A stretch of DNA of 35,364 nucleotides. It comes from Ramlibacter sp. Its GTDB lineage: Bacteria; Pseudomonadota; Gammaproteobacteria; Burkholderiales; Burkholderiaceae_C. Positions 1-18,476 of this stretch are shown one piece after another. How positions within the stretch are numbered: position 1 is the stretch's first letter; every line of letters starts with the position of its first letter. The translations under genes and the position numbers were made by a program. The stretch spans positions 1-35,364 of the forward strand of contig NZ_JACCWG010000312.1 in NCBI RefSeq assembly GCF_013697775.1, in the 5' to 3' direction. A model generated the notes under the pieces. The model saw only the letters and a list, made by a program, of their open reading frames with translations, had not been told where the DNA came from and made no database searches.

Positions 1-3000
1 TTGTCCGGCCGAACTGCAAGCCTGTGCCGGTGTACGGCGCGGGCGTCGTGTCGGCGCCGCCATAAACGGAGTCACTGAGCTGCACGGCCTCTGTCGCTCG
101 CTGCTGACCGCCACCTCCCCAATTCGCCTCCGCCAAGCTACTCCCCAACGCATTGCCAAAGGCGTCGGTGGCGATCTGCTGAATCGCGATCTTTCCGCCG
201 CGCGCAACCGCTGTCGCGGCACCCGCAGCCAGGCCCGTGACCAGGCGCGCACCGAACTGTTCGCCGAAGCTGCGAGTGGCGAAGCCTGGATCGTTCATGC
301 CCATCGCACCACCGACCGCTTGCCCCACTCCCGCGCCCACCGCGCTGGCTGCGACGCTTCTCCAGTCGAAGCTCTTTTGCAATCCCGTGACCACGCCGAT
401 TCCTTGCGAGAGGGCGTTACCCGCCGCAGCGCGCGCGACCACGTTGCCAAAGCTGCCCAGCTCACCGCCGGTGAAGTTCACCCCGCCCAGGCCGGCGGAG
501 ACGCCGCCGCCAATAGCACTGAGAGCAACCTGCTTCCAGCTGAAGCTGTCCTGCGCGCCAATGGCCATGCCCACCGCCTGTCCCGCGATGGAGCTGACGG
601 CGCCGCTCACCGCTCCGGCTGCTGCAGCCACTCCGGCGCCCGCGGCACCGCCCAGCACTGCACTTCCTGCCGCGAACGTCGCCCCCGTCAGGCTCGCCCC
701 GCCTCCGATGGCGATGCCCCCGCTGGCAGCTGCCGTCGCCGCGGCTCCTTGGCCGAACAGGCCAGCTGCGGCCATCGCACCTGCCGTGTAGATGGCGATC
801 ACGATCACGACGATCATCACCAGCAGCTGCCCGAACCAGCTCTTCTTCTTAGGCGCCGGCCCCGGCAGATACGGCGTCGAATCCCCCTGCACCCTGCTCG
901 GGTCATAGGGCCTGAAGGTGTTGGCCGCATTGCCGCTTGCCTCCAGGCTCGGCACCTTCAGCACCTGCCCGGCCCTGAGGTCCGCATTGCCGCTGACCCC
1001 GTTGGCATCCGCGATGCGGTACCACAGCCGCTCGTCTCCGTAGTACGCCTTGGCGACGCTTTGCAGCGTGTCGCCCGCGCTCACCGGGTGGCTCCTGTCT
1101 TGCCCCACCGGCGTGTTGCCCGCGGTGCTCTGGAAGGCGAAGTTGAAGTCCGCCACCGTGGTGAAGCTGGGTGCGCTGGCCGTCTTGGGCTTGGTCTCGT
1201 CCACCACCTCGCCGTAGCGCCCCAGCACCTCGCCGTTGACGATCAGCTCGCGCTGCACGTGGTTGCCCTGGTTCACGTACACCGCGCGGCCGCCCTCGTC
1301 GTTGACGAATTTGCGGTAGCTGTTGGCCTGGCTTTCGTCGCTGGCTTCGCTCAAGCCCCCGCTGCCGTCGTAGTGCTTCCAGCTCTTGGTGCTCAGGTCC
1401 CCGCGCGTGGCCGTGACCGTCTTCTCCTGGTACCCCTCCAGCGACAGGTACGCGTAGGCGAACGTGTTGACGAAGTTCCCCACGATGTTGCGCATCGTGT
1501 AGCCCGACAGGTTGCCGGCAGCGTCGTAGTTCGCCTTGCTTCCTCCTGCGTTGCGGTAGTCCAGCTCGTATTGCTTGGCGCCCTTGTTGTCGAACACCTG
1601 CTGGTGCGCCAGGCGCCCGTCGGCGTCGTAGGCGTTCTTCTTGAACTCCGTGCCGTTGCCCGCCATCGCCTGGTCGCCCGTGGGCGTGGTGCCGTACAGC
1701 GCCTTGAAGTAGTCATCGCTGAGCGTGTTGGGCGCGGTGCCCGACTGCGTGAGCCGCCCGCCGCGGTCGTAGCTGCGCGTGTCCACCGGCGTGCCGTCGC
1801 GAACGATCTGCGTCAGGCGCCCCAGCGCGTCGTAGCTGTAGCTTTCGCTCGTCTGGCCCAGCTGCCGGTGGTAGAGCGCCGGTGTGGTGTAGGTGTAGGT
1901 CTGGGTGTCGTTGTACCCCTCCCTCGTGACCGTGTAGCTGGTGGAGGGCGTGACGCTGACCACCTGCCCCTGCCAGCTGTCGCTGGTCTTGTTGCCCAGC
2001 CAGTCGTAGGTGATGCGGTGGCCGTCTTCTCCCAGCGTGCCGTTCGCGTTCGCATTCGCCAGCACCTGGCGGTTCATCGCGTCGTAGCCGAAGTAGTCCT
2101 CGCTGTCGTGCGCGCCTTCCACCTGGCTGCCCACCGGGGTGGCCGCCTGCGCGGTGATCACGTGCGTGCTGATGTGCGTGCGGTTGCCCACCAGGTCGTA
2201 GTCCATCAGCACCCGCGCGCGGCCGTCTTCCACCAGTTTCAGCCGGCCCAGCGCGTCGTAGGCCAGGTAGTTGTCCCGGTAGGTGAGGTACTGCGGCACG
2301 TTGTTGGCGTAGCCGCCTTGCTGCGTCGTCTCGCGCACCCGGTGGCCCGCCAGGTCGTAGGCGAAGATCTGCAGCGTGTTGGTGCTCGCGTCGTTGATTT
2401 TGATCAGGTTGCCCGAGCGGTCGTATTCATACCGCAGGTTCTGCCTCATCTGGAAGGCGTCCGTCGCCCGCGTGTTCTCCTGCGCGGTGAGCTGGCGCGC
2501 GTTGTCGTAGGTGTAGGTGTAGGCAGCCCCGCCAATGTCGGTGTGGCCCGTCAGTTGCCCGAAGTAGTCGTAGCTCCAGCTGGCCGTCGCACCCAGGCCG
2601 TCGCGCCGCTTCGTCATGCGCCCTTGCGCGTCGTACGCCATTTGCGTGGTGACCCCTGCCTCCACGCTCTGGATGACGTTGCCGCGCAGGTCGTAGCGGT
2701 AGCGCGTGGTCTGGCTGGCCGCGTCCGTGCCCACGTGCACGGTCTTGCGCCCCGCTTCGTCCCAGCTGTTGGCCTCCGTCAGGCGCACCTGCTGCTCGTT
2801 GGACAGGGTGTAGCTGCCGTCCATGGAGTAGCGGCTTGTGTCCACCGCGGCGTAGGTGGTCAAGCTCAACCGGTTGAGCTTGTCGTAGGCGTAGTCGGTG
2901 GTGTACGAGACGGCAGTGTTCGCCTTGGCCGTCGCCTGCACCTTGTTGCCGAAGATGTCGTAGCGGTAGCTGACGTCCCCGCCGTCGGCGTGCCGCTCGG

Positions 3001-6000
3001 CCAGCAGGTTGCCCGCCGCGTCCCATTCCTGGCGGTTCATGTTGCCGTTGGCGTCGATCACCGCCACCTGGCGGCCCAGCACGTCGTACAGGATCTTCGT
3101 TTGCGCCGCGTTCGCGTTGCCGTTGCCGTCCGGCTGCAGTTGCTGGACCAGCTGGTTGTTCGCGTTGTACGCGTAGCGCGTCACCCACCCGGCATACCGC
3201 GCGTCGCTCACGCTCAGCACGTTGCCCCAGCGGTCCCAGCTGCGGTTGACTGTCGCCTGCAAGGTCGGCGCGGCCGTGTCGCTCGACGTGGGCTCCGTGA
3301 CGCTCGCGCCCTGCTGGGAGGCGGGCGTTGCCGCCACCACGAACAGCGTGCCCGCCGCATAGCCGGTGACCGCGTCGCCCTCCAAGCGCGTGAGTTCCAG
3401 CTCGTACTGGCCGGGCGCGAAGCTTGGCGGGAATTTCACCACCAGCTGCGCCGTTCCGGTGGCGTTCGCATACTCCGGGTTCATCTGCGTCCATTGCGCC
3501 GTTCCAGCAAGCCGCCAGCGCAAGACGTCGACCACGCCGCTTTTGAAGTTCCACGCGAACTGTGTGCCGCCGTCGGCCGTCGGCGTGCTCGCCGCCCCGG
3601 GGATGAGGGGGGTTTCCGCGAGGGCCACGTAGTTCTGGAACGCCGCCCCCGCGCTCTGGCTGGCGATGTATTTGCCCGCCACGGATGTGTCCGCCTCCAG
3701 CGCGATCACCGGTGCGATGTGCTGCACCGGGTACATGGTGACCGTGGCTTGCCGCTGCGCCAGGCGCTTGGGATTGGTGGCGACGTCTTCCTCGTAGTAC
3801 ACGTCGACTTCGAAGGCGCCGCCCCAGACCGCGCTCGATGCCAGCACGGTCACGCTCTGCCAGCCGCCCGCGCTGGTGATGGTTTCCAGCGGCGGCTTCC
3901 ACGCCGTGGTGCCGGCCAGGCGGTACCTCAGCACCGCCCGCTGGCCCTGTGGCGCATTCGGCCACTTCAGCGTCCAGCCGCCGTCCGGGTTGGGCGTGAA
4001 CCGCGCGTCCACCCACGGCAGGCTGCCTTCGTGGTACACCGGCGCGACATAGCCGGTGGCGACCTCGTCGAGCTTCGGCTTGGTCGTGGCGTTCTGCGAA
4101 TAGACCAGGTTGCCCGTGTACTGCGCAATCTCATCGGTGCCCACCGAGTAGGTGATGCGCAGGCCGTACGTGCCGGCCGGCTTTAACCCCAAGTCGATGT
4201 ACCACGAGCTGCCGTCCGCACCCGGCAGAACCTCCGAGGTGTGGTTCTCCGGCTGCGTCGTGCCCGGCACAAGCCAGGTGGCCTTCAGGACCGCGCCGCT
4301 CACCGTCGATTTGGGCCACGACAGGCGGTAGACGCTGGCGCTCAGCGGCTTGAGGGTCGCGTCGATCTGCGGAAGATTGCTCGGCGCGGTGTACGCCGGC
4401 GTCACATCGTTGATCATCGGCTTCGTGGGCGGCACCGACGTGGTCTTCAGCTCGCCTGTGTATTGCGCCGTGCGCGTGCTACCCGACTGGTAATACAGGT
4501 CCAGTTTGTACGTGCCGGGCTGCAGGTCGGCCGCGACGAACGAGGCCATCTGGGCGGACCCGGATGTCGTGATGCGCGGCGTGAAGACCTGCCACGTTCC
4601 CGAGTTCTGCAGCTGGATGCGCAGGACCGTGCTGCTGCCGGTTGGCGGCTTGGGCCATTGCAGCGTCCAGCTGCCGTTGGAGGCGACGGTGCCGAGGGTT
4701 ACCGGCCACACGTACGGGTAGCCGTCGGCCACCGCGTTCTGCTCGGGCGTGTAGGACGGCGTGGTCTCGGTCAGCGTGTACGCGCCTTTGTTGGCCGTCA
4801 TGTTGCCGGTGGAGCGGCAGATGATCGTACCGGCGCTGTTCGTCAGCACCACCTGGATTTCGTAGGCGCCGTCGGATGGGGCGCCGGCGGAGATGCCCAC
4901 CACTTGGCGCTTGCCGTCCGCGCTGAGGCCGGACGTGGTGGGCGACCAGCCGCCCTGGGAGCCGAGCGGCCGGTAGGACATCGTCCCGGTCAGGCCGGTG
5001 GATGCCACGGGCAGGTCCCAGGAGATCGTGCAGCCGTTCGGCACCAGGGCGAACATGGCGCCGGGCACGGGCGCCCATTTTTGCGCGAACTCGTGCGTCG
5101 CCCCGCCGTTGGTCACTTGCAGCAGGCCGGAGCCCACCCCGGTGGCCGTGTTCTGGCTGGTGTTCACCACCGTGATCTGCACCTCCCAGTCGCCCGCGGG
5201 AAAGGTGGACAGCGTGATCGACTGCGTCGCGCCGCTGGTCGTGTACTCGCGCGCATTGGCGGTGCGCCAGGGTTCGCCGCTGCCGTTGGGCCGGAAGTTC
5301 AGCACCACCACCGAGCCGGAGCCCGGCGTGTTCCAGGAGAACTTCGAGCCCGCGCCCGCGACGGACTCCCATTTCACGCCCGGCACCGCGCCGGTGTAGA
5401 GGCTTGGAGTCGAGAACGCCGGCTCGTAGAACACCGGCGGCACCCCGTCGGTGACATCGGCCAGCGTGGGCGCCGCGTAGGAAGGCGGCTTGACCACCAC
5501 GCTCAACAGGCATTGCGCCACGCGCAACGCGGGCGTGCCCTTGAGCTGGTAGATGTCCACGTCCCAGGTGCCCGCGGCGAATTCCGTGGCGGACACCGTG
5601 AACTTCCACGTGGTGCCGGTGTCCACGGGCGTGGGGTAGGACCATGCTCCGCTGCTCCCGGCCTTGCGGAACGCCCCGACGGTGGTCACACCTGTGGTGG
5701 TGGGCTTGGCGAGTTCCAGCGTCCAGCTGCCGTCGTCGTAGGCCGTCCTGGTCACCGCAAGGATCGGGTAGTTATTCGGTGCCGTGTAGGCAGGCGTGGT
5801 CTTCGACAGGGTGGGCGCCACCGTGGTGCCGGCGTACGCCGTGAGCGTGCCCAGGCTCAGCCCCACCATCTTGTTGGTGGCGGTGTCGAACTGCACCAGC
5901 TTCAGGTCATACAGGCCCGCCCCCTGGTCCGCCGCGGGGATGTCCAGGCGCTGGCCGCCGGCGGTGGAGGTGATCCAGGAGGACTTGTTGATGAATGCGC

Positions 6001-9000
6001 CGCTGCCGGCCGGGGCGATCCAGGCTTCGGTGTAGCGGCCGGCCGGCAGCGTCCATGTCATCCACCAGCTGCCGCTGTCCTGCCCTTCGAAGTGGACGTC
6101 CGGCACGGGCGGCGGCGTGTCGCTCCCAGGTTCGGTGTAGGCCGGTGTGTTCGGCGTTGTCTCCAGGATCTGCGGCGCTTGCGCCGGCCCCTGCGCGATC
6201 GTCATCGTGCCGGTGGTGCGCCCGGTCGGGGCGCCGCCCGCATTGAAGGTGGCGAGTTCCAGCTGGTACTGCCCCGGCAGCAGGTCGGCCGGGCTGGTCA
6301 TTTGCCAGGACGGCGCGTCCGCCACCAGCGTCCATGGCGCGTCCTGCCAGATGCCGGTACCGGCCACGCTGTAGCGCAAGGTCCAGGTGGAGCCCGCGAC
6401 CTTGGGCCAGGTGATCAGCGTCGTGCCATCGGCAATGGGCTGCAGGACCGCCCCGCTCACCCGCGGCAGGCCCTGCGGCGCGGTGATGGTGAACACGCCG
6501 GTCTTGTGCGCATAGGCGCCCGCGCCGCTGTGTGCATAGTTCAGCTCGTACTCGTAGTTGCCCGCAGCCAGCGCCGAGGCGTTGATGCCGCTGCTGCCGC
6601 CGTCCAGCTGCACGACCGGCAGCGTCTGCCACGCGCCCGCGGTGCCCGCCACGCGGTAGCGCATCGCCTGCGTGACGTCCCCCGCCGGCGTTTGCCAATA
6701 GAACACGCCCACGCCCTTGGCACCCGTGAGGAGGGCCGCGTCGATCTGCGCCAGCGGCACGTTCACCAGGCCGATGGTGCCGGTGGAGGTCACCGCCGGC
6801 GCCGTTTCGCCCTGGCGCTGGGTCAGTACGCGGTACTCGTAGGTTCCGTCGGCCCTGCCTGCCGTGTTGAAGAGCAGCTGCCTGCCGAAGTCCAATCTTC
6901 CCGTGAGATCTTCCCAGCCATTGCTGCTGCCGGCGGGGCGCACTTGCAGCGTGACGCTGGTCCCCAGGTCCTGCGGCTTGTCCACATACACGACGTTGAC
7001 CGGAACACCCGTGGCGCCCTGGTCGTACACCACGCACCAGTTGCCGCTGATGTCCTTCTTGTAGACCTTCAACGAAGTGATCGCGTCGATGCCGGCGACG
7101 GTTTCATCGTCCTTCCACTCCAGGTTCACGCCGCTGGCGGCGTCTTCGGTGGTGAACATGCGCGTGAGCGTTCGGACACTCGCCGCTCGATAAAAATCCC
7201 GCGGCATCATCACCTCGCCTTGCGAGTATTCAATGGTGCGCGCGTCCGCTTTGGTGGTGTACCCCAGTTCCACCTTGACCTCGCCGGATCCCAGATTGGC
7301 CAACGATGTCCAGCTGAGCGCAACCTTGTTGGGCTTGTCCCACTGCGGCTCATTGTTTGGGCCGGTGGCGAGTTCACCCACCTGCGTCACGAGGGTCTGT
7401 GTCACAGTGGCCTGCAACACCCCCACGCCGGTGGCCGCTTCCAGCTTTTGCGGCAGCACCTGCTTGATCGCGTGCCCGAGCTTGTCGTAGACGGTGAGGG
7501 TCTGGCGCAGGCTTGGCGCCAAGGGGAAGGCGGTCTCGACGTTGCCGATGCTGCCGGTCCTACCCAGGTAGATGTTGCTCGCGCCATTGGTGCCGTTGCT
7601 CGCGCCGTCGCTGCGCAGCTCCAGCGTCATGTTGCCCAACTGGTCGTAGAGCATCACGCGGTCCACGCCGTCGCCCGCATTGGTGCGCCACAGGCGCCCG
7701 GCCGCGTCGTAGTCGAAGGACTCGGCCTCCAATAGCTTGCCGTCCACCGTCTTGAGCGTCAACTCGCCGAAGGCGTTGTAAGTTTGCGTGGTGGTCGTGG
7801 TGAGCGTGGAGCCGTCCAGCTGCGTCGGGCCCGGCTCCCTGGTGCTGACCAGGTGGCCGAGCTTGTCGTACTGCATCTGCTGCCACAGCGTGTACATGGC
7901 GGCGGTGCCGGAGCTGACGTCGGTGACCTTCTGCCAGGTCTTGGCCAGGTCGCCGCGCGCGTTGTACGAGTAGTAGTGGTTGACCTGCCCGGCGTCCGTG
8001 CTCTGCGTCAGGTGGCCGAAGCGGTCGTAGGCGAAGCCCTGGACGTGGTCGGCCAGAGAACCGCCCAGGAACGTGAAGCCGGTCAAGCTCGGGTTCGACG
8101 CGCCGAGCGCGCGCTCCACCGTGCCCACCACGTTGCCGAAGGCGTCGCGGTAGTAGTCGGTCAGCGGCGTGACCTGCGCCCCGCCCGCGTTCACCGTCGG
8201 CGTGACGACGGCCTTCACGCGGCCCAGCGCGTCGTAGTAGCTGTAGGTGGCTCCGCCCGCCGCGTCCGTCGTGCGCACCAGGTTGCCCAGATCGTCGTAG
8301 GCATACGAGGTGACCACATCGACCGGCCGCTCGTCCATGCCGCTGAGGCTCAAGCGCAGCGCGTAGCTGCCCGAGGGCAGCCCCTGCGGGATCACCACGT
8401 ACTGGATGGCGCCGTCGGTGACGACGGTGGCGCTTTGCCAGTCGCTGCTGTTCGGTGCCTGGAACTGCAGGCTGGCGATGTTGCCGGCGGCAGGCTTGGC
8501 CCATTGCAGCACCTTCACCGACGGCATCCCCTGTCCGGTCGAGTGGTCGCCCAGTTGCACGCCCGCGGGAAGCGCCCCGGGTTGCAGGACCATGTTCGGC
8601 CCCAGGACGTTCAGCGCTCCCTTCATCGAGGCGATGCTCACGCCCGACATCTCGTAGCTGAGCTCCACGTCGTAGCTGCCCGCGGCCACCGCGGCGGAGA
8701 TGGCCAGGTGCTGCGTGCCGTCGGTGTCGGTAACAACAAAGTCCGTCACGCTTTCCCAGGCCTGCGCCGCGATCGAGCTGGAAGGCCGCCAGCGCAGCAC
8801 GGCTTGCGCGTCCGCGGGCGGAGTGGACCAGCGCAGAACACCCGTGCCGTCGGCGCCGCCGAAGAAGACCACGTTTTCAATGCCGTTCACGCCTGGCGGA
8901 TTGGTCGCGAAGGTCATGACGGGTTTTTGCGGGGTGTTCGTGACTCCCAGCGTGCCTTGGCTGGGAGTGCCAGAGACGGCCTTGCCCGCCGCGGCCAGCA

Positions 9001-12000
9001 CGCTCGCGCGCGTTTCGCTCGTCTTGCGCCCGAGCGCGTCGTAGGCATAGGTGGTCTTGCGGTCGTCGCCCGGCACGGCGAGCGCCGCCGGCGCGTTGGC
9101 GCTCACCGGCTGGGTGCCCCAGTTGCCGCCGCCCACGCTGGTGGCGTACTCGGTGCGCGTTTTCAGCAGGCCCGCCTCGTCGTAGGTCTGGGTGGTGAGG
9201 TAGCCCATGGCGTCGACCGTGCCCACTTCCTGGCCGCGGCGGTCGTAGAAGTGGTCGGTGGTGGCCGCCTGCGTGCCGCTGCCGGCCACCGCCCGGATCA
9301 GTTCGCCGAAGGCGTTGTACGTGTTCGTCGTCACCCGGCCGGTCACCGACGGCGTGCCGCTGTTGGTGCCAACGTCGATGGTGTAGGTGAAGACGGCCGG
9401 CTCGATGACCTTGGCCACGCGGCCGCGCTGGTCGTATTGCGTGAGCAGGTGGCGCGCCGGATTGTTGGCCAGCGTGAGCAGCGTTGCCATGCCCTGGCGC
9501 TGCTCTTCGGGCAGGCCCTGCGGCCCGGACGCGGCCACGGTGACCGGATTCCCATAGCGCGCCAGGTCCAGCACCTCGCCGAACGCATTGCGCGTGTAGC
9601 CCACCACGTAGCCCATGGCGTCGATCTCGTAGCTCGCCCGGCCTGAGCGGTCGTAGATCTTGTAGCTCCAGTTGCCCGCCAGGTCCTGGCCCGCCACCGC
9701 GTTGCCCAGCGTGTCGTAGGTCGTGGTGGTGCTCAGCGGCGCCGGTGGCGTTTCGCTGCGCGCGGCCAGTCCCACCATCGTGAGCGGGTCGTTCGCCGCG
9801 TCGTAGACGCTGACCGCCGGATACAGCGTCTTCACCTGGCGTCCGAGCGCGTCGTACTGGTACGTGGTCACACGCTGGCCGGCCAGGCCGGCGGCTTCGG
9901 TGCGCGAGGTCAGGTTGCCCAACGCGTCATAGCCCAGCAGCGTGACGATCGATTGCGACACCACGGAGGGGTCGTTGGCGGTCAGCACGCCGGTCGTGGC
10001 GTCGGCGATCGGCGTGCTGATGTCCACCTGGGGCGACGTCTCGCGCAGCATGTGCCCCGCCGCGTCGTAGTCGTAGGTCCAGAAGTCACCCTTCTTGTTG
10101 GTGAACTTGGTCTTGTTGCCCACCGCGTCGTACTCGTAGCGTTCGGTGTGGTTCAGCGAGTCGGTGCTGGTGAGCAGGCGGTCCGCGGCGTCGTAGGTGT
10201 AGTTGTCGGTGCGGGTGGCGGGGTCCCCCACGAGCGCGTCGCGCACCGTCTGCCACGTGGGCTGCGCGCCCAGCGTGGGCGCCAGCGAGTACAGGATGGT
10301 CTTGCTCACGCGGCCCAGGCCGTCGTAGCGGTTCTCGCGCACGTAGCCGGCCGCGTCCACCGTGTAGGCGAGCTGCCCCGCCGGATCGAACACCTGCCGG
10401 GTGGTGCGGTCCTGCGTTGCGCTCGGGGCGACCAGCAGGCCTACCGCGGCGGCATTCGCCGCTGCAGGCAGCGCCGCCAGGCTGGCCTGCGCGATGGGCT
10501 GTGCATAGGCCGTGGTCCGCACCACGCGCCCCACCCCGTCGTACTCCGTCAGGGTCGCCGCGCCGGCCGCGTCCACCGCATAGGCCAGGCGCCCCGCGTT
10601 GTCGTAGGCGAAGCGGTCGATGCGGTCTTGTGCGTTGTCCGGCACGAGCGCACCGGCGATGTCGCTCGCCGTCGGCAGTGCCATGCCCAGAGTCGGCTTG
10701 CGGTCGTAGGCGCGGCGCAGCGTGAGCCGGCCGTTGCCGTCGTAGTCGTTTTTCACCACGCCGCCAAGCGTGTCCAGCACGTAGGTGTTGCGCCCCGCCT
10801 TGTCCCACGCATAGGTGGTGACGCGGTCGGACCCGCTTTCGGTGGCGCCCGCGGGATCCGCACCGGCGGTGATGGGCGTGGCGTACTGCCTCAACTGGCG
10901 CAGGTTGCCGTCGGCGTCGTAGGTGCGCTTGGTGACCGCACGGACGCCGTCCACGCTGTAAGCGAGCCGGCCGGCCTTGTCGTAGACCTGGCGCAGCAGC
11001 ATGTCCCGGCTGGCATCCGCCACCTGGGTGGTTGCCGTGAGCATCGCGCTTTGCGTGGCCGCCGTGCTGGTGACGATGGCCGTGGCATAGGCCGTGCGCT
11101 TGACCACGTTGCCGTTGCCGTCGTACTCCGTGGCCACCACCGCGCCTGCGCCGTCGATCTGGTAGATCGCGCGGTCGAGCTTGTCGTAGACGGTGCGCAG
11201 CCGCTGGTCGTGCCCAGCGTCGGACGCCGGGTTGGGCACCGTGCCGGGCGTCCAGTTGCTCACCTTGTTCACGTAGGCGATGCGCTCCACCACGTTGCCG
11301 TTGCCGTCGTAGGTGTATTTGACGACACCGCCCGCGCCGTCCACCGTTGCGGCCAGGCGGCCGTCCTTGTCCCAGACGCGGTATTCGGTGACGTCCTGCG
11401 CGCTGTTCGCGACATAGCCCTGCACCTGCGCGAGCGTCGGGGACGTGGCCATCGACGCGAGGCTGGACGCGGTGATGTTCGTCGCATAGCGCTTGACCTG
11501 GACCAGCCGGCCGTTCGCGTCGTAGCCGTTTTGCTGGACCGCGCCGTTGGCGTCCACCGTGTAGACCAGCCGGTTGTTCGCGTCGTACGCATAGCGGGTC
11601 ATCTGCCCGTTGGCGTCCTTGCTGTTGGCCACGTTTCCGGCGCCGTCGTACGCCCAGGTGCGCGTGAGGTTCAGCCCGCTGGGGTCGACCTGCTCCATCG
11701 TGCGCCGCCCCAGCGCGTCGTAGGTGTAGCTGGTGACGTTGCCCGCGGGCGTGGTGACCGTCAGCACGTTGGAGGCGCCGTCGTAGGTGTAGCTGGTGGC
11801 CAGGTTCAGGCCCGACGGGTCCACCACCTGCTTGGACAGCTGGCCCTTCAGGTCGTAGTCCAGGCGCGTCACCACGCCGTTCGGGCTGGTGGTGGTGATC
11901 TGCTGGCCCTTGGCATCCCAGCTGTATGTCGTGACCAGGTTCAGGCCACTGGGGTCGACCGTGCGCGTGAACACCCGGTTGGCCGCGTCGTAGGTGAAGG

Positions 12001-15000
12001 CGACCTTGTTGCCCGAAGCGTCCGTCGTGTCGGCGATGCGCCCGGCACGGTCGTAGCTGGTGCCCACGGTGCTCAGGTCGGCGCGCGTGGTCAGCTTCAG
12101 GTTGCCGTCGCGGTCGTAGGCGTAGCTCGTCGTGTTGCCGCGCGCGTCGGTGACGCTCTGCGTCTGCCCGAAGCGCGTCATCATGGTGGTGGTGGCGATG
12201 CCCTCCGGGCTGGTCACCGTGACGCTGCGCTGGGCAGCGTCGTAGGCGTAGCGCGTCACCCCGCCCAGCGGGTCGGTCTGCGTGACCACCCGGTCGAAGG
12301 CGTCGTAGGCGGTGATGGTCGCCGCCGACAGCGCATCGCGCGTGGTGACCTGCCGGCCCAGGCGGTCCCAGGTGAAGCCGCGCGTGTTGCCCAGCCGGTC
12401 CGTCTGGCTCAGCAGCCGGCCGAACGCGTCGTACTGGTTCTGCGTGGCCAGCAGCGTGCTGCTGCCGGCCTGCGCCAGCCGCGTGACCAGGCCGCGGCGG
12501 TCGTAGCTGCGCAGTTCGTTGTACGCCAGGCCCGCGCCGAGGGCGCGCGTGCGCGAGGTTTCCTCGCCGAAGGCGTTGTAGACGTAGTTGGTGGCAAAGC
12601 CCAGCGCGTCGGTGCTGCTTGCCGTGCGTCCGGCCAGCCCGTAGGTGGCGCTGCTGGTGCTGTCCTGCGCGACGTTCTTGACCAGGTTGATCGCCGAGGT
12701 GAGCGCCACGTTGACCAGCCCGCCCGCGTTGGCGCCCGTCAGGCCCGTCAGCCCGATGCGTGCGCCGTACCTGACGACCGCCGTGCGCTGGCCCAATGTG
12801 TTGTATTGGTTTTCGGTGACTTCGCCCAGCGCGTTGACCGTGTGCGTGAGCTGGTTGTCCGGGTTGTAGAAGAACAGCGTCTTGTTGCCGTATTGGTCGG
12901 TGGTGCTGGTGCGCCGTCCCGCCGTGTCGCAGCTGTGCGCAAGGCCCCACTGCGCCCAGATGGCGTCGATTTGCGCCGGCGTCTGGTTGCCCGTCAGCAG
13001 CGCGCTGCCTTCGGCCGTGAGTTCGCCCACCAGCCGGCCCTGGATGTCGTAGCGCGCCTGCAGCGTGCGCACTTCGGGCTGGCCCCAGCCCTTGACCGTT
13101 TTGACCAGGTTGCCGGCGTTGTCGTAGGTGGACTGTGTGACCGTGCCCTGCCAGTCGGTCTGCTGGGTCACGCGGTCGAGTCCGTCGTACTGCCAGCTGG
13201 TCGCCTGGTCCTGCGCGGTGGAGACCGGCCGCACGTTCGCCACCGTGCTGGCGGTGGTGTAGACCGCGCTCACCTTCGTGGCGTAGCGCGTGCTCTGCGC
13301 GAGCCTGCCGCTCTTGTCGTAGACCTTCTCGGTCAGGTAGCCCTCGGCATCGATCTCGCCAGCCACCTGCCCCTTGGCGTTGTACAAATACGTGGTGGTC
13401 TGGTCCGTCGCCGCGGACACGGGAATCATCTCGGCAAAGGTGGCGGCCTGCGCCTTGGTGTTCGTGTAGCGCACTTTCTGCGAGAGACGGCCCGCCGCGT
13501 CGTACCGGTATTCGCTCAGGTAGCCTTCGCCGTCCAACTCGCCGCGCAGGCGGCCGTCGGCGTCGTAGTAGCTGCGCGCCATGCGGTCTTCCGCCGCATT
13601 CGCGGGGGTGATGGCCGCAAGCGTAGGCGCGTCGCCCAGGGCCGTGGTGACAAGGCGCGTCGCGTAGGCCCTTACGCTCGTCACGCGGCCCGCACCGTCG
13701 TAGCTGGTGGCGACGACCGCGCCCGTGCCGTCCACCTGGCCGACGAGCCGGTTGGCGGCGTCGTACACGTGCCATGCGTGGCGGTCGGTGCTGCTCACGG
13801 CCGGGCGGACGGATGCGAGCGACGGATTCGTCGGCTGGCCCGATGCGTTCACCAATGCGGCGGTGCTCACGCGCGTGGCATAGGCAATGGTGTGCGTGAG
13901 CAGGTTGGCGGCGTTGTACCGGTATTCGGTGAGGCTGCCGTCCCCGTCGATGTCCGCCACCTTGCGCCCGGCCTCGTCGTAGAGCGACCAGTTGCGCACG
14001 CTGGTCGGGTCCTGGGCCATGGCCAGCCGGCCGAGCGCATCGTAGGAGTAGCGCGTGGTGCCCAGGTCGGACACCGAGGCGCTCGACTGCACGACGCTGA
14101 TCAGCTGGCCGGCGGCATCGTACGCGCGCGCGGTGATCAGCCCGTTGGCCTGCTTCACCCGGATCGCATTGTTGCTCGCGTCGTAGGTGTAGGTGGTCAG
14201 CTCGTTCTGGCCGTTGGTGGCCGTGAACACGCGCCCCAGCCCGTCGTAGGTGTAGCTGGTCGTCGCTCCAGTGCCCGAGATGGTCTGGCGCAGCTTGCCC
14301 TCGTAGTCGCGCACGTAGGTCGTCACGGACTGGTTGCCGTCGTTGACGCCGTTGCCGCTGGCGTCCAGCTTCGCCCATTGCGTGGCCGTCTGCAGCTGTC
14401 CGCGGTAGTCGTAGGCGTAGTCCGTGCGCATCGCCTGCGCTCCCCGGCCCGAAGCCCAGGTCTGCAGCGTTGCAGCAGTCGGCACCGCGGTTGCGCCCAA
14501 TGCCGACACGTCGTACTTGTCCTGCGCGTACTGAAGCGTCGCGGTGCGCTCGCCCAGGGCGTCGTATCGGTATTCGGTAACGCGCCCTTCCGCGCTCAGC
14601 ACGAAGCGCAGCAGCCGCTTGCTCGTGCCGTCGTACACGTAGCGGGTCGTCAGCGGCTGCGACGGTTGCGCCGCGCCGGCGCCGTCGGGGTCCGGCACGG
14701 TGTACACGGTTTCGGTCACCAGCTGGTTGTACGTGTCGAAGGTTCGCGTGATGGTGTTGCCCGCAGCGTCGCGCTGCAGCGTCTGGTTGCCGTTGGCGTC
14801 GTACTCCATTGCCGTCTGGCGGCCGAGTGCATCGGTGACGGCCGTCAGCCGTGATCCCGTGCTCGTACCCATATTGGTATAGGTGTAGGTGGTGAGCTGC
14901 GAGACGCCATTGACCGGCGGCGCGGTGACCGTCGCAAGCCGTCCGCCGATGTCATACGTGTAGACCGTCTGCCGGAGCAGTGCGTCGGTGACGGTGGTGC

Positions 15001-15949
15001 GGCGGTTCTGCTTGTCGTAGCTGAAGGTCGTGGTGCGGCCCACCCCGTCGGTGACGCTCGACACGCGCGTGACGCCGTCCGAACCGGTTTGGTAGCCGAA
15101 GCTGATGCTGGTGCCGTCGGCTTGTTGAATGCCGGCGAGGTTTCCCGCACCTTCGTACCAGTACTGCGTCTTGTAGACCTTGCCGTCCGCAATGCTGTTG
15201 TCCTCAGGGCTCAGGTCGACCGTGACGGCCTTGAGTTTTCCGTCGGCCTGATACTCGTAGCGCGCGACAGTGCTGTTCGCCCCCGCTGCGCTGGTGTAGA
15301 CGATGCTGGCGAGCCGGGTCGTGCCCTGGTAGTCGAAGGTGAAGCTGTCGCCGGTAGACGCCTGCACCTTCTGGATCTGCCCCTGGCTGTCGTACGTGTA
15401 ATTGACCGTGTTGCCACGCGCCTCCGTGGCCGACGCGAGCACGTATTTCCCAAGCGCATTTTTGGTGTACTTCTCCGTTGCCCAGGTGTCGCCGTCGGTC
15501 CAGGTGAAGGTTTGGGTGACCGTGCTGAACTTGATCGTGTCGTAGGCGCCTGATCCCTTGCCCGAAACGTAGGCGGACACGCTGGAATCCCAGGCGTAGG
15601 CGGCCTCGGCGCCATCCTGCTCCGTGCGGTAGATGGTGCTGCTTTGCGATACGTACGTTCCCGTAAAGCGGATGTTGCCGCCCCTGAAGACGCCGCTGGT
15701 CCAGTTGTCGCCGTTGTCGTCGTCCAGCAGGCCCTGGCTGTTGTACGTCCGCAAGGCGGTGACCTCGCTGCCGAAGGCCTGAAATACGTCATCGCGGTCC
15801 TGCAGCACCAAGTTGCCATTGGCGATGTTGACGAACGCCTGTTCGCCGTTCTGCCCCAAGCCGGAGCTCCCGATCTGCCCTTGCTGGCCCAAGGTGGCCG
15901 CAGAGGTCAAATTCAGGCCGAGGGTGTTTCCGCTGACGATGGCTACCAT
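1..15949 (-). CDS. Giant YD/RHS-repeat mosaic protein with LysM domain (C-terminus off left edge)
   Basis: One frame is open from the ATG at 15949 to base 1, at least 5,316 codons. I translated samples near 15949-14500, 13800, 12300, 10860, 9600, 9000-8300, 7500-6000, 5400, 4150, 2400, 1800 and 1080-1, and all lie in this frame without stops. The start is supported by GGAG eight bases upstream. The N-terminus (MVAIVSGNTLGLNLTS) has no Sec signal; a capping segment with NGEQAFVNIANGNLVL follows at residues 34-49. YD repeats (YDxxGRL type) fill residues about 150-2315, 2540-2815 and 4225-4850. Beta-sandwich-like units lie between them (2317-2540 and 2950-4215). LysM is at about 4953-5002, a hydrophobic segment at 5034-5061, then a Gly/Ala-rich tail. 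YD repeats are known to form large hollow beta-shells, so a cell-surface or secreted role is likely (inference). No C-terminal toxin is visible because the end is outside the window. Confidence 0.93.
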   Translation of the reverse strand, partial: MVAIVSGNTLGLNLTSAATLGQQGQIGSSGLGQNGEQAFVNIANGNLVLQDRDDVFQAFGSEVTALRTYNSQGLLDDDNGDNWTSGVFRGGNIRFTGTYVSQSSTIYRTEQDGAEAAYAWDSSVSAYVSGKGSGAYDTIKFSTVTQTFTWTDGDTWATEKYTKNALGKYVLASATEARGNTVNYTYDSQGQIQKVQASTGDSFTFDYQGTTRLASIVYTSAAGANSTVARYEYQADGKLKAVTVDLSPEDNSIADGKVYKTQYWYEGAGNLAGIQQADGTSISFGYQTGSDGVTRVSSVTDGVGRTTTFSYDKQNRRTTVTDALLRQTVYTYDIGGRLATVTAPPVNGVSQLTTYTYTNMGTSTGSRLTAVTDALGRQTAMEYDANGNQTLQRDAAGNTITRTFDTYNQLVTETVYTVPDPDGAGAAQPSQPLTTRYVYDGTSKRLLRFVLSAEGRVTEYRYDALGERTATLQYAQDKYDVSALGATAVPTAATLQTWASGRGAQAMRTDYAYDYRGQLQTATQWAKLDASGNGVNDGNQSVTTYVRDYEGKLRQTISGTGATTSYTYDGLGRVFTATNGQNELTTYTYDASNNAIRVKQANGLITARAYDAAGQLISVVQSSASVSDLGTTRYSYDALGRLAMAQDPTSVRNWSLYDEAGRKVADIDGDGSLTEYRYNAANLLTHTIAYATRVSTAALVNASGQPTNPSLASVRPAVSSTDRHAWHVYDAANRLVGQVDGTGAVVATSYDGAGRVTSVRAYATRLVTTALGDAPTLAAITPANAAEDRMARSYYDADGRLRGELDGEGYLSEYRYDAAGRLSQKVRYTNTKAQAATFAEMIPVSAATDQTTTYLYNAKGQVAGEIDAEGYLTEKVYDKSGRLAQSTRYATKVSAVYTTASTVANVRPVSTAQDQATSWQYDGLDRVTQQTDWQGTVTQSTYDNAGNLVKTVKGWGQPEVRTLQARYDIQGRLVGELTAEGSALLTGNQTPAQIDAIWAQWGLAHSCDTAGRRTSTTDQYGNKTLFFYNPDNQLTHTVNALGEVTENQYNTLGQRTAVVRYGARIGLTGLTGANAGGLVNVALTSAINLVKNVAQDSTSSATYGLAGRTASSTDALGFATNYVYNAFGEETSRTRALGAGLAYNELRSYDRRGLVTRLAQAGSSTLLATQNQYDAFGRLLSQTDRLGNTRGFTWDRLGRQVTTRDALSAATITAYDAFDRVVTQTDPLGGVTRYAYDAAQRSVTVTSPEGIATTTMMTRFGQTQSVTDARGNTTSYAYDRDGNLKLTTRADLSTVGTSYDRAGRIADTTDASGNKVAFTYDAANRVFTRTVDPSGLNLVTTYSWDAKGQQITTTSPNGVVTRLDYDLKGQLSKQVVDPSGLNLATSYTYDGASNVLTVTTPAGNVTSYTYDALGRRTMEQVDPSGLNLTRTWAYDGAGNVANSKDANGQMTRYAYDANNRLVYTVDANGAVQQNGYDANGRLVQVKRYATNITASSLASMATSPTLAQVQGYVANSAQDVTEYRVWDKDGRLAATVDGAGGVVKYTYDGNGNVVERIAYVNKVSNWTPGTVPNPASDAGHDQRLRTVYDKLDRAIYQIDGAGAVVATEYDGNGNVVKRTAYATAIVTSTAATQSAMLTATTQVADASRDMLLRQVYDKAGRLAYSVDGVRAVTKRTYDADGNLRQLRQYATPITAGADPAGATESGSDRVTTYAWDKAGRNTYVLDTLGGVVKNDYDGNGRLTLRRAYDRKPTLGMALPTASDIAGALVPDNAQDRIDRFAYDNAGRLAYAVDAAGAATLTEYDGVGRVVRTTAYAQPIAQASLAALPAAANAAAVGLLVAPSATQDRTTRQVFDPAGQLAYTVDAAGYVRENRYDGLGRVSKTILYSLAPTLGAQPTWQTVRDALVGDPATRTDNYTYDAADRLLTSTDSLNHTERYEYDAVGNKTKFTNKKGDFWTYDYDAAGHMLRETSPQVDISTPIADATTGVLTANDPSVVSQSIVTLLGYDALGNLTSRTEAAGLAGQRVTTYQYDALGRQVKTLYPAVSVYDAANDPLTMVGLAARSETPPAPLSTTTTYDTLGNAVAGQDLAGNWSYKIYDRSGRASYEIDAMGYVVGYTRNAFGEVLDLARYGNPVTVAASGPQGLPEEQRQGMATLLTLANNPARHLLTQYDQRGRVAKVIEPAVFTYTIDVGTNSGTPSVTGRVTTNTYNAFGELIRAVAGSGTQAATTDHFYDRRGQEVGTVDAMGYLTTQTYDEAGLLKTRTEYATSVGGGNWGTQPVSANAPAALAVPGDDRKTTYAYDALGRKTSETRASVLAAAGKAVSGTPSQGTLGVTNTPQKPVMTFATNPPGVNGIENVVFFGGADGTGVLRWSTPPADAQAVLRWRPSSSIAAQAWESVTDFVVTDTDGTQHLAISAAVAAGSYDVELSYEMSGVSIASMKGALNVLGPNMVLQPGALPAGVQLGDHSTGQGMPSVKVLQWAKPAAGNIASLQFQAPNSSDWQSATVVTDGAIQYVVIPQGLPSGSYALRLSLSGMDERPVDVVTSYAYDDLGNLVRTTDAAGGATYSYYDALGRVKAVVTPTVNAGGAQVTPLTDYYRDAFGNVVGTVERALGASNPSLTGFTFLGGSLADHVQGFAYDRFGHLTQSTDAGQVNHYYSYNARGDLAKTWQKVTDVSSGTAAMYTLWQQMQYDKLGHLVSTREPGPTQLDGSTLTTTTTQTYNAFGELTLKTVDGKLLEAESFDYDAAGRLWRTNAGDGVDRVMLYDQLGNMTLELRSDGASNGTNGASNIYLGRTGSIGNVETAFPLAPSLRQTLTVYDKLGHAIKQVLPQKLEAATGVGVLQATVTQTLVTQVGELATGPNNEPQWDKPNKVALSWTSLANLGSGEVKVELGYTTKADARTIEYSQGEVMMPRDFYRAASVRTLTRMFTTEDAASGVNLEWKDDETVAGIDAITSLKVYKKDISGNWCVVYDQGATGVPVNVVYVDKPQDLGTSVTLQVRPAGSSNGWEDLTGRLDFGRQLLFNTAGRADGTYEYRVLTQRQGETAPAVTSTGTIGLVNVPLAQIDAALLTGAKGVGVFYWQTPAGDVTQAMRYRVAGTAGAWQTLPVVQLDGGSSGINASALAAGNYEYELNYAHSGAGAYAHKTGVFTITAPQGLPRVSGAVLQPIADGTTLITWPKVAGSTWTLRYSVAGTGIWQDAPWTLVADAPSWQMTSPADLLPGQYQLELATFNAGGAPTGRTTGTMTIAQGPAQAPQILETTPNTPAYTEPGSDTPPPVPDVHFEGQDSGSWWMTWTLPAGRYTEAWIAPAGSGAFINKSSWITSTAGGQRLDIPAADQGAGLYDLKLVQFDTATNKMVGLSLGTLTAYAGTTVAPTLSKTTPAYTAPNNYPILAVTRTAYDDGSWTLELAKPTTTGVTTVGAFRKAGSSGAWSYPTPVDTGTTWKFTVSATEFAAGTWDVDIYQLKGTPALRVAQCLLSVVVKPPSYAAPTLADVTDGVPPVFYEPAFSTPSLYTGAVPGVKWESVAGAGSKFSWNTPGSGSVVVLNFRPNGSGEPWRTANAREYTTSGATQSITLSTFPAGDWEVQITVVNTSQNTATGVGSGLLQVTNGGATHEFAQKWAPVPGAMFALVPNGCTISWDLPVASTGLTGTMSYRPLGSQGGWSPTTSGLSADGKRQVVGISAGAPSDGAYEIQVVLTNSAGTIICRSTGNMTANKGAYTLTETTPSYTPEQNAVADGYPYVWPVTLGTVASNGSWTLQWPKPPTGSSTVLRIQLQNSGTWQVFTPRITTSGSAQMASFVAADLQPGTYKLDLYYQSGSTRTAQYTGELKTTSVPPTKPMINDVTPAYTAPSNLPQIDATLKPLSASVYRLSWPKSTVSGAVLKATWLVPGTTQPENHTSEVLPGADGSSWYIDLGLKPAGTYGLRITYSVGTDEIAQYTGNLVYSQNATTKPKLDEVATGYVAPVYHEGSLPWVDARFTPNPDGGWTLKWPNAPQGQRAVLRYRLAGTTAWKPPLETITSAGGWQSVTVLASSAVWGGAFEVDVYYEEDVATNPKRLAQRQATVTMYPVQHIAPVIALEADTSVAGKYIASQSAGAAFQNYVALAETPLIPGAASTPTADGGTQFAWNFKSGVVDVLRWRLAGTAQWTQMNPEYANATGTAQLVVKFPPSFAPGQYELELTRLEGDAVTGYAAGTLFVVAATPASQQGASVTEPTSSDTAAPTLQATVNRSWDRWGNVLSVSDARYAGWVTRYAYNANNQLVQQLQPDGNGNANAAQTKILYDVLGRQVAVIDANGNMNRQEWDAAGNLLAERHADGGDVSYRYDIFGNKVQATAKANTAVSYTTDYAYDKLNRLSLTTYAAVDTSRYSMDGSYTLSNEQQVRLTEANSWDEAGRKTVHVGTDAASQTTRYRYDLRGNVIQSVEAGVTTQMAYDAQGRMTKRRDGLGATASWSYDYFGQLTGHTDIGGAAYTYTYDNARQLTAQENTRATDAFQMRQNLRYEYDRSGNLIKINDASTNTLQIFAYDLAGHRVRETTQQGGYANNVPQYLTYRDNYLAYDALGRLKLVEDGRARVLMDYDLVGNRTHISTHVITAQAATPVGSQVEGAHDSEDYFGYDAMNRQVLANANANGTLGEDGHRITYDWLGNKTSDSWQGQVVSVTPSTSYTVTREGYNDTQTYTYTTPALYHRQLGQTSESYSYDALGRLTQIVRDGTPVDTRSYDRGGRLTQSGTAPNTLSDDYFKALYGTTPTGDQAMAGNGTEFKKNAYDADGRLAHQQVFDNKGAKQYELDYRNAGGSKANYDAAGNLSGYTMRNIVGNFVNTFAYAYLSLEGYQEKTVTATRGDLSTKSWKHYDGSGGLSEASDESQANSYRKFVNDEGGRAVYVNQGNHVQRELIVNGEVLGRYGEVVDETKPKTASAPSFTTVADFNFAFQSTAGNTPVGQDRSHPVSAGDTLQSVAKAYYGDERLWYRIADANGVSGNADLRAGQVLKVPSLEASGNAANTFRPYDPSRVQGDSTPYLPGPAPKKKSWFGQLLVMIVVIVIAIYTAGAMAAAGLFGQGAAATAAASGGIAIGGGASLTGATFAAGSAVLGGAAGAGVAAAAGAVSGAVSSIAGQAVGMAIGAQDSFSWKQVALSAIGGGVSAGLGGVNFTGGELGSFGNVVARAAAGNALSQGIGVVTGLQKSFDWRSVAASAVGAGVGQAVGGAMGMNDPGFATRSFGEQFGARLVTGLAAGAATAVARGGKIAIQQIATDAFGNALGSSLAEANWGGGGQQRATEAVQLSDSVYGGADTTPAPYTGTGLQFGRT
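755..850 (-). other. Hydrophobic, possibly membrane-spanning segment of the giant protein
   Basis: After KKKSWFGQ the frame encodes LLVMIVVIVIAIYTAGAMAA, long enough for one membrane helix, with lysines on its N-terminal side. About 200 Gly/Ala-rich residues follow up to the window edge (for example GGAAGAGVAAAAGAVSGAV), a composition often seen in pretoxin or membrane-interacting regions of polymorphic secreted proteins. Whether it truly spans a membrane cannot be told from sequence alone. Confidence 0.6.
945..1093 (-). other. LysM domain within the giant protein
   Basis: Residues about 4953-5002 contain VSAGDTLQSVAKAYYGD, then LWYRIADANG and LRAGQVLKVP, which match the LysM pattern for binding N-acetylglucosamine-containing glycans such as peptidoglycan. 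A proline-rich linker follows, with three lysines just before the hydrophobic segment. The domain suggests wall association of the C-terminal part of the protein. Confidence 0.88.
1390..3270 (-). repeat. C-terminal YD-repeat block of the giant protein
   Basis: The frame returns to compact YD repeats with short linkers (YNANNQL, YDVLGRQ, YDIFGNK, YDKLNRL, YDLRGN, YDAQGRM, YDYFGQ, YDNARQL, YDRSGNL). It ends near 1200 with a VNQGNHVQRELIVNGEVLG segment that leads into LysM. It resembles the classical RHS core more closely than the longer-linker repeats at 10-14 kb. Confidence 0.85.
3290..7100 (-). repeat. Array of about 11 beta-sandwich-like units
   Basis: Residues about 2950-4220 hold about 11 diverged units of about 115-125 residues. 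Each carries a version of LRYRxAGTxxW: for example MRYRVAGTAGAWQT, LRYSVAGTGIWQD, LNFRPNGSGEPWRT, MSYRPLGSQGGWSP, LRIQLQNSGTWQV, LRYRLAGTTAWKP and LRWRLAGTAQWTQ. An AGxYxxEL strand usually follows. Several units are joined by a TTPAYTxP-type linker (near 6145, 5785, 4755 and 4400; diverged near 5420 and 4050), which gives a period of about 350-365 bp. Neither known YD signatures nor toxin motifs occur here. The fold and any ligand are unknown to me; carbohydrate or surface binding is only a possibility. Confidence 0.75.
8335..8990 (-). repeat. Two beta-sandwich-like units inserted between YD blocks
   Basis: Residues about 2317-2540 leave the YD pattern and give two units. One has LRWSTP, LRWRPSSS, W and AAGSYDVELSY; the other has LQWAKP, LQFQAPNSSDW and PSGSYALRLSLSG. 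They share the core pattern of the large array at 3290-7100: tryptophan strand, L-x-[YFW]-R, GxxxW, then AGxYxxEL. An FN3- or Ig-like beta-sandwich is inferred from unit length and pattern only. Confidence 0.75.
9010..15500 (-). repeat. Main YD-repeat block of the giant protein
   Basis: Translated on the minus strand, this stretch is a nearly continuous run of YD motifs such as YDANGNQ, YDALGER, YDKAGRL and YDADGNL. Between about 10336 and 11576, and again from 13330 to 13968, the motifs are organised into composite units of about 62-70 residues (185-210 bp). Each has a YDxAGRLxYxVDxxG half, a second YD half, and a variable YA-containing linker of alanine-rich sequence. The order is typical of the RHS/teneurin beta-shell, but the linkers are longer than in the standard repeat of about 20 residues. 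Confidence 0.9.
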
Positions 15950-16006
15950 TGCTTTGACTCCGCTTGTTCTGGTTCGAGCTGCCGGATACAGCAGCTCACT
16001 TCCAGT

Positions 16007-16033
16007 ACATCGGCCGGAAAAGCGAATTGTTTA
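16007..16033 (-). promoter_or_regulatory. Sigma-28 (FliA)-like promoter for the giant YD gene
   Basis: Reading the minus strand, TAAACAAT (16033-16026) is followed by exactly 11 bases and then GCCGATGT (16014-16007). The enterobacterial FliA consensus is TAAAGTTT, 11 bases, GCCGATAA. The minus-10 octamer matches 6 of 8 and the TAAA core is intact. Transcription would start near 16000, leaving a leader of about 50 bases before the ATG at 15949. Confidence 0.6.
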
Positions 16034-16063
16034 GCGCGAGGGAAGGAATCGCGCGAACCGGCC

Positions 16064-16090
16064 TAAACCGTGCCGGAAAGCGGCCGATAT
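16064..16090 (+). promoter_or_regulatory. Sigma-28 (FliA)-like promoter for the TPR gene
   Basis: TAAACCGT (16064-16071) is followed by exactly 11 bases and then GCCGATAT (16083-16090), 7 of 8 to the FliA minus-10 element. A start near 16097 would leave about 20 bases of leader containing GAGGAG before the ATG at 16119. An overlapping sigma-70 reading, TATACT at 16088-16093, is possible but has no convincing minus-35 element. Confidence 0.65.
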
Positions 16091-16118
16091 ACTGAATTGA
16101 ACACAGAGGAGTTTTGCG

Positions 16119-16724
16119 ATGTCCCACGAAATGCCCGCTACGGGCTCCGGCGCGGAGGATCCGCGCACCTTGCTTGACATGGGCATTGCCGCGAGCATGG
16201 CCGACCGGCCCGCCCAGGCGCTGGCGCTGTTCGCGCAGGCTGCGGCTGCCGCGCCTACGTGGGCGCTGCCGCACTTCCTGCTTGGATCTGAATACGCGGC
16301 GCAAAGCGACATCGGGAATGCGGAGGCGGCACTGGCCAACGCCGTGCTGCTCGACCCCGAACTGCACATCGCGCGCTACCAGCTCGGCCTGCTGCAGTTC
16401 AGCTCCGGACGCGCCGCGGCAGCCCTGGTGACCTGGCAGCCGCTCTCCGCGCTAGAGGGTTTGCAGGGCCTGCCGGCGTTCGTGCGGGGCTTCGCCGCGA
16501 TGGCGCAAGACGACTTCGCCGGCGCGAAGCAGCACTTCCACGCGGGCCTGGCGCAAGCCGATATCAATGCCGCGGTGGCGGGCGACATCCGCAAAGTGCT
16601 GGCCGACGTGGAAGCCTTGCGCGTCCCCGGCGTCGCGTCCGCACCTGCGCCCGTACAACCAGCGGAAATCAGCTCCACTGCCCACGTGCTTGTGTCGGCC
16701 TACGACAAGTACAAGCTGCACTGA
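16119..16724 (+). CDS. TPR-repeat protein divergent from the giant YD gene
   Basis: This 201-residue cytoplasmic protein has no signal peptide. Residues 14-140 form three to four helix pairs of TPR type: LLDMGIAASMADRPAQALALF, then LGSEYAAQSDIGNAEAALANAVLLDP, LGLLQFSSGRAAAALVTW, and FAAMAQDDFAGAKQHFHAGL. A Pro/Ala linker and the tail SAYDKYKLH follow. GAGGAG lies seven bases before the ATG. TPR proteins act as protein-binding scaffolds or export chaperones. Its promoter faces away from and closely resembles that of the giant gene, so a role in expressing, folding or exporting that protein is a reasonable inference. I do not recognise a named family. Confidence 0.85.
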   Translation: MSHEMPATGSGAEDPRTLLDMGIAASMADRPAQALALFAQAAAAAPTWALPHFLLGSEYAAQSDIGNAEAALANAVLLDPELHIARYQLGLLQFSSGRAAAALVTWQPLSALEGLQGLPAFVRGFAAMAQDDFAGAKQHFHAGLAQADINAAVAGDIRKVLADVEALRVPGVASAPAPVQPAEISSTAHVLVSAYDKYKLH

Positions 16725-16751
16725 AAGCGCGCGCTTTCGCGCGCACAAAGC

Positions 16752-16781
16752 AAAACGCCCTCTCGAATGAGAGGGCGTTTT
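16752..16781. terminator. Bidirectional intrinsic terminator
   Basis: A perfect 13-bp stem (16752-16764 with 16769-16781) closes a GAAT loop. The core is CGCCCTCTC with an A-run on one side and a T-run on the other, so it can terminate the TPR gene on the plus strand and the ribosomal operon with tRNA-fMet on the minus strand. Confidence 0.9.
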
Positions 16782-16785
16782 AATT

Positions 16786-16862
<77 letters not shown>

Positions 16863-16881
16863 TCAGAAGGGAAATTATAAG

Positions 16882-17286: not shown

Positions 17287-17365
17287 GGTGTGTTCCTTTC
17301 TATTGCTTGCAGCCGTATCAGGTACTGCAAGGTCAAGGCTGCGAAGCAGCCCCGTTGTCGTCTAC

Positions 17366-18355: not shown

Positions 18356-18453
18356 GCAGGACTTCCTCTCAATACCCCCGGCTCGTTACACCGGTAAGGC
18401 TGGTGGAGTGCCCGAAGGGATGCCTCCCCAGCGGGAACGAAAAATTCACAAGG

Positions 18454-18476
18454 ACGAGACTGCGCGGCAGCCTCGT
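18454..18476 (-). promoter_or_regulatory. Hairpin between rpsD and rpoA, possible attenuator or processing site
   Basis: In the minus-strand transcript, ten-base arms (18476-18467 and 18463-18454) pair with one G-U and a three-base loop. A run of five T (18444-18440) follows about ten bases later. The U-run is too distant for a clean terminator, so partial termination, attenuation or RNA processing before rpoA are the options. It lies in a 131-bp gap, the longest within the operon. Confidence 0.4.

Follow-up and report, generated by a model that had tools for sequence, protein, structure and literature searches.

Divergent predicted promoters of a FliA-family sigma factor between a giant YD/RHS gene and a TPR gene in Ramlibacter

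Introduction

Two promoter-like sites face outward within a single 169-bp gap (15950-16118) of a Ramlibacter-group genome, one directed at a giant YD open reading frame (ORF) and the other at a 201-aa TPR ORF. Their geometry recalls the promoters of the flagellar sigma factor FliA, and the locus therefore raises the question of which sigma factor reads them and what a giant YD protein could share with late flagellar genes. We use SigY as a working name for a sigma factor of the FliA family that is encoded in a flagellum-type gene cluster; the window is the whole stretch of 35,364 nucleotides analysed here, and the genome to which it belongs is called the own genome. For R. tataouinensis an absence of flagellar genes has been reported (PMC3164672).

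Materials and methods

The window comes from a Ramlibacter-group assembly of 4.88 Mb in 480 contigs that is 97.7% complete. The genus set of 59 genomes is mainly Ramlibacter and includes Caenimonas sp. SL110 (G050). The R. pallidus protein served as the query for SigY; strong matches scored at least 153 bits and the next best at most 78. TPR orthologues were collected by protein similarity and their upstream regions then read for a motif, so that the refined pattern, TAAAC-N16-SGATRTA, was formulated after inspection of the relatives' TPR upstream regions. Each TPR gene was counted once, and the counts were set against the TPR and giant hit lists. There were 25 giant hits in the genus, one of them without upstream sequence, leaving 24 examinable.

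Cluster genes of relatives were named by similarity to those of R. pallidus, where Pfam was used to check FliP, FliO, FliN, the C-terminal part of FliM, FlgE, FliI and FliH; the remaining R. pallidus genes carry provisional names. The search for filament and motility genes covered flagellin and FliG. Giant tails were compared among 14 relatives and the window, ten of them being scanned against Pfam.

Results

The first-pass annotation of this DNA described paired FliA-like sites on both strands, facing outward with 11-base spacers, and these are indeed present. The plus-strand site consists of TAAACCGT (16064-16071) and GCCGATAT (16083-16090), the minus-strand site of TAAACAAT (16033-16026) and GCCGATGT (16014-16007), with 11 bases between the two elements of each; both sites thus have the TAAA -35 and, at 11 bases, the GCCGATAA -10 expected of a FliA regulon. 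The annotation's flanking genes, a YD/RHS giant and a TPR gene, were borne out by matches to RHS repeats and TPR. The features of the locus are:

2..15949, minus strand: giant YD/RHS ORF of at least 5316 aa, with an ATG start, open at the contig edge (ORF and RHS matches, orthologue search)
16006..16033, minus strand: predicted SigY-type promoter facing the giant YD gene, with the sequence TAAAC-N16-CGATGTA (conserved class)
16064..16091, plus strand: predicted SigY-type promoter of the TPR gene, TAAAC-N16-CGATATA (conserved class)
16119-16724, plus strand: 201-aa TPR protein (TPR matches; orthologues in 21 of 59 genus genomes)
16752..16781, plus strand: intrinsic-terminator-like hairpin of 13 pairs, predicted to end the TPR transcript

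Each site has a C before it and CTG after it; the giant-side site ends about 56 bases from the start codon and the TPR-side site 27 bases from its own. A consensus scan of 15500-16800 returned no sigma-70-type site. The pattern TAAA-N15-GCCGATR has exactly two matches in the 4.88-Mb assembly, both of them the gap sites; since the reversed control matches three times, a single site alone is unremarkable, and what counts is the outward pairing in one 169-bp gap. With the refined pattern, again only the two gap sites match in the own assembly, and the control gives none.

RHS repeats are numerous in the window giant, which also has a single LysM domain (about 950-1084). Its leader is MVAIVSGNTLGLNLTS, with no charged residue in the first 35 positions; the form MVAIVSGNxLGL is common to many giants. 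On reading, this leader appears to have no Sec-like signal, and it may resemble the VINTNSLSL start of flagellin. The TPR protein is a candidate chaperone or partner of the giant. Beyond the TPR gene and the hairpin lies tRNA-Met on the opposite strand, and in the window from 16786 to 25700 the tRNA is followed by a minus-strand block of ribosomal protein genes (named from reading).

The upstream regions of the TPR genes carry TAAAC-N16-SGATRTA, often as a divergent pair: the site is exact in 18 of the 22 strong TPR hits of the genus and present with at most one mismatch in 20, a count that is not independent of the pattern because the pattern was read off these same regions. The one-mismatch sites belong to G024 and G053, and the genes without a site to G011 and to the second copy in G027. 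Among the 24 examinable giants, 13 have an exact site and 6 a site with one mismatch (19 of 24 with at most one), 2 have two mismatches and 3 have none, namely those of G024 (17-base spacer), G045 and one of three in G050. After shuffling, a site with no more than one mismatch turns up in 0.02% of TPR and 0.08% of giant upstream regions. As the pattern was formulated after the TPR regions had been read, the fairest test comes from those genus giants, 11 in number, that do not lie divergently to a TPR gene; here 5 sites are exact, 2 have one mismatch, 2 have two and 2 genes are without a site. Outside the genus the giant of Herbaspirillum autotrophicum has the site, which is missing before the giants of G079 (four hits, some with short upstream sequence), G090 and Trinickia.

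Other genes on the fetched loci rarely have the site (6 of 984), and among spacings of 12-20 only 16 is seen before called starts; for both figures part of the loci had been fetched for the motif. Genome-wide, the pattern gives 47 hits in the 59 genus genomes against 5 for its reverse, by which chance was rejected as the source of the class. The 25 genomes with SigY hold 41 of the 47. At the TPR locus lie 28 hits; the other 19 comprise 5 before giants, 4 before the gene of a small protein with an MTTIDP leader (see the last section), 1 before a gene termed TPR384 and 9 with no recognised target. A regulon of SigY would have the pattern before TPR and giant genes, as is found, and we regard both the promoter class and the regulon as well supported.

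SigY lies near or adjoins the TPR gene in several relatives and scores 95-107 bits on the FliA profile TIGR02479, whose cut-off is 189.6. Strong matches occur in 25 of the 59 genus genomes (in R. terrae, G049, in two pieces) and in G079, G083 and G090. In a maximum-likelihood tree of 33 rows, 20 SigY and SigY-like proteins form one clade (96/93) beside 10 FliA (98/93): SigY is the sister clade of FliA. Its nearest solved relatives are WhiG and FliA. Among the named carriers are Ramlibacter, Caenimonas, H. autotrophicum, Rhizobacter, Roseateles, Trinickia fusca and a Curvibacter MAG; a further 35 loci on the carrier list are remote (25-32% identity, mostly Bacilli). Within the genus SigY co-occurs with the giant (18 genomes with both, 7 with SigY only, 2 with the giant only, 32 with neither; p 1e-7) and with the TPR gene (18, 7, 3 and 31 in the same order; p 6e-7), both p values ignoring shared ancestry and treating species that are not independent as if they were.

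The association is not strict. Seven SigY genomes have no giant hit, and G053, which is 99% complete, keeps the giant, the TPR gene and near-sites without SigY. On its contig C17 (L305) the near-sites, TAAAC-N16-CGATCTA, lie divergently between giant and TPR gene; this genome has two FliA over the cut-off. At another locus (L183 9335-17455, in G007) SigY has as its immediate neighbour a 2467-aa protein that shows no YD similarity, and is not surrounded by flagellar genes.

The first-pass annotation had taken the sites for promoters of the flagellar FliA and predicted that the giant and TPR proteins are made with late flagellar genes. Its site geometry and its link to flagellar-type genes hold; FliA as the sigma factor and co-expression with motility are not supported. 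No TIGR02479 match exceeds the cut-off in the 97.7% complete own assembly (best 101.4 against 189.6 bits), an absence that the annotation had itself named as contradicting it, and PF00669, the N-terminal flagellin family, has no match there; this family also picks up FlgL. Co-regulated flagellin or motility genes were likewise not seen, as there is no PF00669 match and the pattern occurs only twice in the genome. Plain control by FliA was rejected on the lack of both fliA and flagellin in the own genome. In the genus, FliA over the cut-off and flagellin are found in the same 12 of 59 genomes, G025 and G046 carrying both FliA and SigY, and 23 of the 25 SigY genomes have no flagellin.

Flagellated members of the genus offer a direct comparison of sites. 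Flagellin-linked sites in G030, G034 and G046 read TAAAG or TCAAG-N14-GCCGATA, whereas the class of the gap sites in the same notation is TAAAC-N14-nnSGATRTA; the remaining stretches among the 16 flagellin upstream regions searched gave no such FliA-type site. The conservation in relatives that the annotation had asked to be checked is real, yet what it indicates is a dedicated paralogue of FliA, namely SigY, within a flagellum-type cluster without flagellin, and so promoters that are not shared with late flagellar genes of the motility type.

The cluster is seen in R. pallidus, where the order is giant, TPR, small gene, TPR384, SigY, FliP, FliO, FliN, FliM, FlgE and FlgD, and onward the FliJ-position gene, FliI and FliH to FliF, FliE, Flg genes, FlhA, FlhB, FliR and FliQ. 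The gene in the FliG position is short, at 165-254 aa across ten examples, and none of five scanned matches FliG_C. In the FliM position only the C-terminal FliMN domain is matched, and the protein is equally close to SctQ and FliM, both below cut-off. With the scarcity of flagellin in SigY genomes and the missing FliG_C, these clusters do not have the content of a motile flagellum.

Outside the genus, a single locus of 13.6 kb in H. autotrophicum runs from FliE to the giant and includes the SigY cluster and the TPR gene; its two exact sites separate the TPR gene from the giant. In T. fusca, too, the apparatus genes lie together with SigY, the TPR gene, the small gene and the giant, though the site is missing there. 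R. ginsenosidimutans (G020), whose genome is 100% complete, retains SigY along with the giant and the promoters, although next to its sigY the cluster is reduced to an FlhA fragment with FlhB, FliR and FliQ. FlhA was sought in 17 SigY genomes: 4 gave no hit, and 2, this species included, gave fragments only. As giants occur without SigY, SigY without giants and SigY without FlhA, cargo and apparatus are not inseparable. In R. terrae (L233) several cluster genes, among them FliF, FliI and SigY, are in two pieces.

In the own genome, contig C213 has Pfam-confirmed genes for FliQ, FliR, FlhB, FlgF/G, FlgA, FlgH, FlgI, an FlgC-type protein, FliE and FliF, and contig C1, of 3.1 kb, has those for FlgD and FlgE; the FlgB-position gene has no Pfam match. 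FlhA is also present, and is 82.6, 73.4 and 71.2% identical to the full-length SigY-linked FlhA of G006, G027 and G025, against 42.4-43.9% to FlhA of the flagellated G034 and G017 and to the other copy in G025. A search of this assembly for SigY was negative (best E 1e-3). Contig C1 ends inside the FliM-position gene and C434 inside the TPR384 gene, beside the small gene; since sigY of relatives lies between precisely these two genes, its absence is best read as a gap, and from this gene order we infer that sigY is present in the genome and unassembled.

Searches with the giant N-terminus gave 30 hits in 22 of 99 genomes, of which 20 have SigY. The tails differ: 5 of the 10 scanned exceed Pfam cut-offs, in five families (GH-E, Tox-HNH-HHH, bacterial RNase A, AHH and Tox-URI2), one is below cut-off (GIY-YIG) and four have no match. 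The giants of relatives thus have the variable ends of polymorphic toxins; the tail of the window's giant is lost at the edge of the contig. At 9 of 14 loci a same-strand ORF starts within -4 to +7 bases of the giant stop, a figure that refers to mechanically called ORFs and has no control.

Discussion

The explanation that we consider probable is that SigY transcribes the late cargo of a flagellum-derived secretion apparatus. The 84-bp stretch would hold two divergent promoters of one dedicated regulon: SigY, distinct from FliA and encoded after fliP, would recognise TAAAC-N16-SGATRTA and transcribe the giant YD gene to one side and the TPR gene to the other, and in relatives would also serve the MTTIDP-leader gene. 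By analogy with FliA, giant and TPR protein would be late products, made once basal body and hook can export. Giants would replace flagellin as cargo, presumably exported unfolded, each carrying a variable toxin-like tip, and the TPR protein may act as their chaperone; binding of SigY to the sites, export through the apparatus and an antagonistic role of the giants are all inferred. A further step, to which we give rather less than an even chance, is that these clusters encode a secretion machine of a class apart: a flagellum that lacks a filament, probably does not rotate and has a FliA-family sigma factor to itself, and that first assembles its hook-basal body and afterwards exports giant RHS polymorphic toxins of 3,700-5,500 residues as late substrate in place of flagellin, for contact with other cells.

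The regulon could also be real while the apparatus exports something else or decays, the giants leaving by a type VI, type I or Sec-independent route. We think this possible, though it would somewhat surprise us. The giants of G053 (no SigY) and G020 (truncated cluster) agree with it, and known Rhs toxins are reported to use type VI secretion; set against this are the 20 SigY genomes among the 22 with giants, and the single loci that unite apparatus and giant in Herbaspirillum and Trinickia. It is unlikely that the conserved sequence serves a transcription factor as paired operators and is not an alternative-sigma promoter. The TAAAC motifs do stand back to back, often as GTTTAGCGGCTAAAC, but single sites precede individual genes (off the TPR locus, 5 giants and 4 small genes), the spacing is constant at 16 among the 12-20 tested, the distance to the start fits a promoter, the co-occurrence is with a sigma factor, and no further promoter-like site was found in the gap. 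That these are ordinary FliA promoters, with fliA and motility genes lost in assembly, is highly improbable: the geometry and core of the sites are those of FliA, and the 480 contigs leave parts of the flagellum-type cluster unassembled, but flagellin is missing too, FliA over the cut-off and flagellin coincide in the genus, the site is frequent in genomes without either, and TAAAC and the -10 are unlike the three flagellin sites found.

The proposed SigY regulon shares with FliA class 3 promoters the TAAA type of -35, a GAT-containing -10, the spacing, the late-gene logic and a sigma factor of the FliA/WhiG group. It differs in having TAAAC for TAAAG, an SGATRTA -10, a sigma clade well below the FliA cut-off, and giant YD, TPR and MTTIDP genes as targets in place of flagellin and motility genes. 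Like injectisomes, the cluster is without a filament and has a FliM-position protein no closer to FliM than to SctQ, with neither match reaching its cut-off; unlike them, it keeps flagellar P-ring, L-ring, rod, hook and hook-cap genes.

The non-flagellated Lysobacter enzymogenes OH11 has a working flagellar export system without flagellin that was shown able to export a foreign flagellin; export genes are likewise kept without flagellin here, and the parts of that paper available to us mention neither a native cargo nor a dedicated sigma factor nor a YD protein (PMC7277350), whereas here a full set of rod, ring and hook genes is accompanied by a sigma factor of its own and a candidate cargo. 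The giants resemble RHS/YD polymorphic toxins in having RHS repeats, nuclease or RNase domains that vary at the C-terminus, and a small ORF immediately downstream at 9 of 14 loci; the accessible parts of the account by Zhang et al. do not describe flagellar delivery of RHS toxins, but mention an RNase beside Firmicutes flagellar operons as possibly delivered or regulatory (PMC3482391). A Vibrio cytotoxin is reported to be secreted through the flagellum (PMC6123715). We found no published link of FliA-type promoters or flagellar export to giant RHS/YD proteins, a weak result as most subscription literature was outside reach.

If the proposed explanation is right, the flagellar late-gene switch has been re-used, with a dedicated sigma factor, for toxin-like cargo instead of flagellin, and RHS-type giants gain a possible export route of which we found no description. 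It would also give a testable reason why non-flagellated bacteria retain flagellar gene clusters.

Other targets of the promoter class

In relatives a small, well conserved protein with an MTTIDP leader is a third target of the class. Its gene loci are:

L190: 5571-5933
L191: 5714-6085
L194
L203
G000:C434 (L326): 5634-6029

The protein has no match in Pfam or NCBIfam; a profile search gave weak matches to designed TPR proteins, and in a structure model its C-terminal half is predicted to be all-helical. Its start may resemble that of FlgM, which makes an anti-sigma role conceivable, and the label FlgJ-like is a guess from reading. At L196 (G022:C12:1087610) a TPR384-type gene comes right after a pattern hit, which may mark a fourth target class.
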